From a virus, in the IMG/VR virus record IMGVR_UViG_3300024982_000004, positions 1-44,814 of that record: a stretch of 44,814 nt of DNA; one strand, 5' to 3'. Below, in pieces: positions 12,738 to 13,318 of this stretch. The notes beneath the pieces were generated by a model. It was given only the letters and a program-made list of their open reading frames with translations, did no database searches and had not been told where the DNA came from. The position numbers were made by a program, and so were the translations under genes. Numbering within the stretch: position 1 is the stretch's first letter; each line of letters starts with the position of its first letter.

Positions 12738-13318
12738 ATCCTCACTAAGAGGCAATACGCCCAAAGAGGCGTTGTGTTTGCGGTCACATTCAAAACCGCG
12801 CTTATCTTATCAACGAACAAACGCACCCCACGCTATAAGACTATGCGGCCTACATCTTGGCTGGCTGGGTATAAATAGAGAAGATTTACAACAAACCGTG
12901 TTAGACAGGGGCGGTTAATCAATCACACTCATGGTTGATTAGGACTTGAGGTTAAAAGGGGTAACGCTAGTAATAGCGGTTAGGCTGGAAGGGCAACCAG
13001 ATAAATAGCTACTCAAGATTACTTGTTGTATTGGAATGAGTCTAGGCAGATAGGTTAGGTTACCCCTAACCCCTGTCTAAATGACACTTTTACATTTATC
13101 CATAAGTAAAACTTATCAATAATTTAATTATGATAAGTAAAACAGTATTCACGTGGGGTGAGTTGTGAGGGGCAACACATTAAAACTGCCCACCTATTCA
13201 ATAATTCAGTGAGTGTACGCACGTTAAAACACTGATAGACAACATAGAGAGTAAGCGCAACTCTGCCACGTCTGTGCCACGTGATTGTCGCAAGGCACCT
13301 ATATTCAAGGATTACATT
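12738..13318 (+). other. Untranslated late leader, about 580 bp
   Basis: No convincing ORF. Hairpins: ACGCC/GGCGT (12757-12772), GCGGT/ACCGC (12780-12799), ACTTATCA/TGATAAGT (13111-13137). The strongest structure is at 12901-13080 (listed separately). It lies between the HNH-like gene and the first small packaging-region gene on the late transcript. No tRNA was found. Confidence 0.7.
12901..13080 (+). ncRNA. Candidate structured RNA in late leader
   Basis: Closing stem: TTAGACAGGGG (12901-12911) with CCCCTGTCTAA (13070-13080), 11 perfect pairs 160 nt apart. Nested: AGGGGTAAC (12957-12965) with GTTACCCCT (13059-13067). Local hairpins: TAATCAA/TTGATTA (12916-12941) and CGCTA-GTAA-TAGCG (12965-12978) with a GNRA loop. 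CTTGAG (12945-12950) can pair with CTCAAG (13012-13017), crossing the second stem as a pseudoknot. A competing hairpin GGTTAGG/CCTAACC (13053-13071) would break both long stems. No known family recognised. Confidence 0.6.

Follow-up and report, generated by a model that had tools for sequence, protein, structure and literature searches.

Positions 12901-13080 on the plus strand of a phage contig hold a 180-nt unit, here called type A, that is very probably a real RNA domain kept by selection, as judged from its predicted fold and from comparison with related leaders. The window analyzed is the whole of IMG/VR virus record IMGVR_UViG_3300024982_000004, a stretch of 44,814 nt. A sequence-only reading of this window had described the unit as probably a novel structured RNA of the late leader, with pairing that had the logic of a switch. 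The first part of that interpretation stands, in that the unit is without an Rfam match, exceeds its flanks in conservation and has covarying RNAs in and beside the same slot of related leaders, whereas the switch is poorly supported. We further propose, with somewhat less than even confidence in the statement as a whole, its mechanism included, that the unit is a functional folded domain of the late leader which is both accessory and swappable.

The type A unit in the late operon

The window carries P22-like portal and coat genes together with a large terminase, and the region of interest follows the lambda-type order of Q-like gene, promoter, terminators and terminase; this order, together with sequence similarity, points to a layout like that of lambda (Q - pR' - tR' - packaging genes). 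The Q-like gene (11860-12192, plus strand, 110 aa), the upstream neighbor of the leader, has relatives kept at 80 viral loci. Its relative in locus L022 (69% identical) matches annotated Q proteins at 35-37% identity, namely an 'antitermination-like protein' of phage Venkman and a 'phage antitermination protein Q' (MW202481), and the putative Q-like assignment is based on this level of identity. The gene gave no match to Pfam, and a search with the Q alignment, covering 398 genomes of a single phylum, returned nothing, a result which, with no positive control, shows little. Among named phages that have a related Q, Methylophilales phage Venkman is the nearest and provides a lead, and only a lead, to the host.

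Downstream of the Q-like gene, and likewise on the plus strand, the region's best promoter (TTGACA-17-TAGAAT, 12220-12248; 11 of 12 consensus positions) is presumed to be pR', and two hairpin and U-tract sites in tandem (12295-12344) are presumed to be the intrinsic terminators of tR'. These are followed by a small HNH-like ORF (12390-12737; phrog_16521, E 3e-14; phrog_3118 HNH endonuclease, E 8e-5), an accessory gene in the leader whose place is taken in relatives by other ORFs or by none. The leader is anchored by the first late ORF (13319-13486, 55 aa, M..NDVTGD..), with relatives in 36 viral loci; beyond it lie a likely small terminase (13537-13785), assigned by position and without a family match, and the large terminase (13772-15127; Pfam Terminase_6N/6C and Terminase_3). 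The unit had been placed between the tandem terminators and the packaging genes, and its location is correct, but the HNH-like ORF and another RNA module intervene after the terminators. The lambda late leader (6S) RNA starts at pR', in the interval that separates Q from the packaging genes, is untranslated and ends at tR'; the leader studied here would similarly be an untranslated RNA between a Q-like gene and packaging genes, but the type A unit sits beyond the terminators.

All of the stems named in the sequence-only reading were found on the plus strand exactly where it had put them. These are P1, the perfect 11-bp closing stem (12901-12911/13070-13080; mean pairing probability 0.94), the 9-bp long-range stem (12957-12965/13059-13067; 0.99), a long local hairpin (12915-12925/12932-12942; 0.92) and a hairpin with a GNRA loop (GCUA-GUAA-UAGC, 12966-12977). 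The complementary segments of a possible pseudoknot helix, P2, also exist (CUUGAG, 12945-12950, with CUCAAG, 13012-13017) and cross the 9-bp stem. The competing 7-bp hairpin is present in the sequence (13053-13059/13065-13071), but the switch logic that had been built upon it is poorly supported: a penalty of 8.7 kcal/mol is incurred when this hairpin is forced, and the ensemble gives it a pairing probability of 0.0. No equivalent alternative hairpin was evident in type B, the RNA that takes the place of type A in other phages.

The minimum free energy of type A is -61.5 kcal/mol (z -4.14), with 0 of 200 dinucleotide shuffles folding as well, and the fold ranks 26th among 4464 same-length windows from both strands of the contig. 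Predicted RNA folding is at its most stable elsewhere in the contig, at 26001-26280 amid coding ORFs, where energies go down to -75.8 kcal/mol. Because the minus strand of the unit is equally unusual (z -5.0 relative to shuffles), folding energy does not fix the strand; nor is the 11-bp repeat significant by itself at the scale of the window, since 6 inverted 11-mer seeds were observed in 44.8 kb where 5.2 were expected.

Searches of viral contigs with the terminase, the small ORF and Q yielded more than 100 loci. One of these, L025, carries a type A unit identical to that of the window at 172 of 180 positions (95.6%), and the 8 differences within the unit compare with 33 differences over 196 positions in the flanks (163/196 identical, 83%; Fisher p = 1e-4). 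Mosaic recombination could be an alternative source of such a conserved block. The window and L025 provide the only two distinct type A sequences, 8 differences apart, and for this reason covariation does not prove the helices of type A itself: of 4 changed pairs, 3 are kept on the plus strand, and the minus-strand mirror likewise keeps 3 of 4, 8 differences being too few to test stems. A pattern search for wider relatives of type A recovered only window-like contigs and L025, with nine other matches attributable to chance, and a pattern scan of genome contigs gave three matches, all of them chance. Phage records searched by blastn with type A and with type B, and plasmids searched with type A, returned no match.

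The novelty of the RNA was checked against Rfam 15, which has no match in the window at gathering cut-offs and none at the type B, third-type and module loci described below; the GOLLD and ROOL models were also unmatched in the window. The best sub-threshold score nearby, Trp_leader at 12212-12320 (32.7 bits against a cut-off of 41), was rejected as a terminator hairpin. In the open-access literature, we found no description of conserved folded RNAs between a late promoter and packaging genes.

An alternative RNA in the same slot

Locus L003 is 95% identical to the window downstream, yet its slot holds a different RNA of 226 nt ("type B"), closed by GGGCAACCC/GGGUUGCCC. Type B was found by pattern in five phages (L061, L063, L064, L065 and L066, where L066 is L003, and L063 is the same phage as L021, L022, L062 and L076, or nearly so); a further pattern match, L070, was set aside because it looks like coding sequence. 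Type A occupies the same slot as type B, enclosed by the outer stem P0 and upstream of both the pseudoknot and the first late ORF.

The type B core comprises 108 columns and 17 pairs, with 96.5% of cells forming standard pairs, 8 pairs showing double changes and 17 double-changed cells in all. Neither the percentage paired nor the covariation score was reached by any of 500 shuffles, and sliding the structure along the alignment dropped pairing to 22-35%. P1, P5 and the terminal hairpin of type B covary too. Additionally, two single-stranded stretches, GGCAAGGRAUAAA and AUAAAUAAAGCA, are conserved and look like a binding or tertiary core. A covariance model of type B (R1) scores all five members and, when run over 369 genomes of one class, returned nothing, which again shows little without a positive control. 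Type B is trailed by differing sequences in L003, L064 and L061, so that no single downstream gene goes with it. In L064/L072, at about 3820-3830, an ATG of an uncertain ORF lies just 3' of type B P1 and a GAGGG overlaps P1, which could therefore cover a ribosome-binding site there, and in L061 an ORF with GPGGP-type repeats (1547-1933, minus strand) lies downstream of type B.

Type A may be a distant homologue of type B, the two forming one family with rearranged helices, or it may be an unrelated substitute; we regard homology as a serious candidate that falls just short of an even chance. The two types have in common the slot, P0 and the 5' domain, and they present a series of motifs in the same order, consisting of AAGGGRUAA, a GAUAAAUA that follows a helix, a UUGGA within a hairpin loop and a AUAGGUUA close to P1, although these motifs were chosen post hoc, after looking. 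The joint alignment score is higher than in any of 500 shuffles (z 3.7, compared to z 23 for a true member), a weak similarity that is compatible with distant homology, whereas model R1 is silent at 12901-13080 even with its filters off. A common ancestry would be compatible with any mechanism.

Leaders L080, L078 and L024 contain neither type A nor type B, and in L077, L079, L081 and L086 the slot has other inserts. A third insert type, starting TTTGCACTCTCGACCACGGGGAATAATACGGTGGGGCTG and apparently structured, is common to the same slot of L081 (3911-4300) and L086 (304-700), while a shorter insert closed by CATGATGAC/GTCATCATG lies between modules 1 and 2 in L077 (4850-4964).

Outer stem P0 and the pseudoknot modules

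The 180-nt unit delimited by the sequence-only reading is real but is not the whole RNA, as the same leader also holds a stem enclosing the unit (12824-13160) and, around it, three modules with pseudoknots. The 5' strand of this stem, P0 (CACCCCACG, 12824-12832), pairs with a 3' strand at 13152-13160 (CGTGGGGTG), and P0 is preserved whether it encloses type A (window and L025) or type B (L003 and L065), its one compensatory change being CACUCCACG/CGUGGAGUG; taken alone, one compensatory pair among four sequences is not above shuffles. The 5' domain between P0 and the unit (12833-12900) has an outline common to type A and type B leaders that is defined by sequence similarity only, this similarity upstream of the unit extending over the window, L003, L065, L064 and L061. 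An AT-rich inverted/direct repeat (CATAAGTAAAACTTATC...GATAAGTAAAA, 13098-13142), kept in L003 and L025, lies after the unit and ahead of the 3' strand of P0, and an inverted copy of it (29 bp, 97%) is found behind type B at L022:3186-3214.

Module 1 (12737-12800) consists of two hairpins and an H-type pseudoknot (S1, 12773-12776/12785-12788; S2, 12780-12784/12795-12799), and a second copy of the same type of pseudoknot follows P0 at 13164-13191 (S1, 13164-13167/13176-13179; S2, 13170-13174/13187-13191), all on the plus strand. The copy after P0 reads UGUG-AG-GGGCA-A-CACA-UUAAAAC-UGCCC, and its counterpart in L025 has CGUG/CACG replacing UGUG/CACA and a wholly different S2. This type of pseudoknot, with a short hairpin replacing P0 and the unit, is found at 12737-12800 and in nine other leaders, and because of this recurrence P0 and the unit may be read as module 1 in a second copy, its hairpin enlarged by an inserted RNA domain. 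Across seven distinct versions of the pseudoknot element, pairing holds in 81 of 81 cells and compensatory change is seen at 8 of 14 pairs on the plus strand, with 0 of 2000 shuffles reaching this pairing or covariation in an alignment that was made by hand and is somewhat favorable.

Module 2 (13204-13300, plus strand) combines a UACG-loop hairpin with an H-type pseudoknot (S1, 13267-13270/13280-13283; S2, 13274-13278/13294-13298). In a MAFFT alignment of this module, 92.4% of cells are paired and 11 of 18 pairs carry double changes on the plus strand (0 of 500 shuffles). The corresponding covariance model, R2, gives 15 matches at E < 1e-3, including the window, and finds the distant loci L033 (E 1e-13) and L083 (E 6e-4), neither of which was used in model building. 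Module 2 is directly followed by an intrinsic terminator in L033 (2726-2860), in the L025 leader (minus strand, approximately 700-860) and in L086 (702-850), and by a ribosome-binding site in other leaders; a terminator and a ribosome-binding site are the two usual riboswitch platforms.

Proposed role and competing explanations

The occupation of one slot by type A or a substitute, amid pseudoknots that have been kept in evolution, suggests that phages have accessory RNAs of a kind not recognised before. In the mechanism that we propose, type A would be transcribed from the late promoter after the Q-like protein lets RNA polymerase past the terminators, would fold independently and would exert its effect as RNA, bound to a factor of the phage or of the host. 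We consider an accessory RNA acting in trans or on a bound factor, as a decoy or scaffold, more probable than a metabolite switch for the packaging genes because the unit is optional, is swapped as a cassette and is not tied to one downstream gene; action in trans itself is suggested solely by this optionality and by context.

Two explanations in which the leader acts in cis deserve weight, and we regard each as unlikely. Under the first, the leader would stay on the elongating polymerase and aid passage of terminators in the late operon, as a processive antitermination or anti-pausing RNA. The precedent is the HK022 put RNA, which is approximately 70 nt long, forms two stem-loops with a triplex, serves early operons and acts alone, without a dedicated protein, to suppress intrinsic and Rho-dependent termination (PMC9378689). 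Like put, the leader is a folded phage RNA with a phage promoter upstream and a long operon downstream; a promoter and tandem terminators precede it at the start of the late operon, and intrinsic terminators occur just 3' of module 2 in L025, L086 and L033. The unit, however, is located after the first terminators and so could not help to pass them, and under lambda logic late antitermination would already be supplied by the Q-like gene. Furthermore, type A is 180 nt within a 337-nt stem, belongs to a late operon and is optional.

Under the second, the leader would be a cis-regulatory element of the riboswitch or protein-sensing type that governs the late operon or just its small first ORF, a reading of comparably low probability. 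A P1 stem closing a core is aptamer-like, and both usual expression platforms are seen, since module 2 or the pseudoknot adjoins the ribosome-binding site in most leaders and a terminator follows module 2 in the three loci just mentioned. This adjacency, however, belongs to module 2, the unit being approximately 240 nt upstream of the ORF with two modules between; the unit can be absent or replaced, and the energetic cost of its 7-bp hairpin counts against a switch within it.

That the unit is a chance or non-functional fold of a non-coding leader is very improbable: the 11-bp repeat is indeed at chance level in 44.8 kb, but the fold (z -4.1), the conservation exceeding that of the flanks and the covarying slot-mate all argue against it. 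Least probable of all is a DNA element, whether a pac/cos packaging site or a small mobile element bounded by inverted repeats, which the nearby terminase genes, the 11-bp inverted repeat at the ends of the unit and its insert-like swap among relatives might suggest, but which is opposed by the compensatory changes over many type B helices, unneeded by a DNA site, by the lack of matches in plasmid and phage collections and, for the mobile element, which we rejected, by the absence of a target-site duplication and by end sequences that differ between type A and type B.

Other published RNAs resemble the leader in single features, and the comparison establishes its membership in none of these classes. 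GOLLD and ROOL are elaborate phage RNAs of unknown function, GOLLD having a conserved and a variable part and rising at lysis (PMC12286853); type A shares the elaborate fold, but these RNAs are hundreds of nucleotides longer and often lie near tRNA islands, whereas type A lies in a late leader. Pseudoknots in series are also found in the STAXI motif of non-coding DNA, in which one pseudoknot is repeated two or three times (PMC2864571), and in ToxI type III antitoxins, which are arrays of short H-type pseudoknot repeats, located beside a ToxN gene and cut by the cognate toxin, and which phages can imitate with ToxI-like decoys (pseudo-ToxI) (PMC5086642). The modules of the leader, in contrast, differ from each other and are not near-identical repeats, and they match neither in Rfam. 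The cabRNA of staphylococcal phages is a structured RNA of the terminase region that is sensed by host defence (PMC10686824), but it comes from within the terS/terL coding sequence, while type A is a conserved leader domain.

In a broader and more doubtful reading, the late leaders in this group of environmental phages may be modular RNA arrays, in which covarying H-type pseudoknot modules of two or more kinds accompany a slot for swappable domains (A, B and others), and the array would constitute an undescribed class of phage RNA, possibly serving as decoys against different host defence or regulatory factors. If such an array is real, it would add several phage RNA families beyond Rfam, located between the late promoter and the packaging genes, and the slot for exchangeable domains would make it possible to test directly if phages carry accessory RNAs as they do accessory genes. 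The window and L003, a matched pair with similar flanks and a different RNA, represent a ready-made natural swap. Exchange beside the leader involves genes as well: small ORFs and terminase genes have been exchanged between phages with near-identical leader stretches (window, L003, L022 and L004), which marks the leader as a recombination-prone junction.
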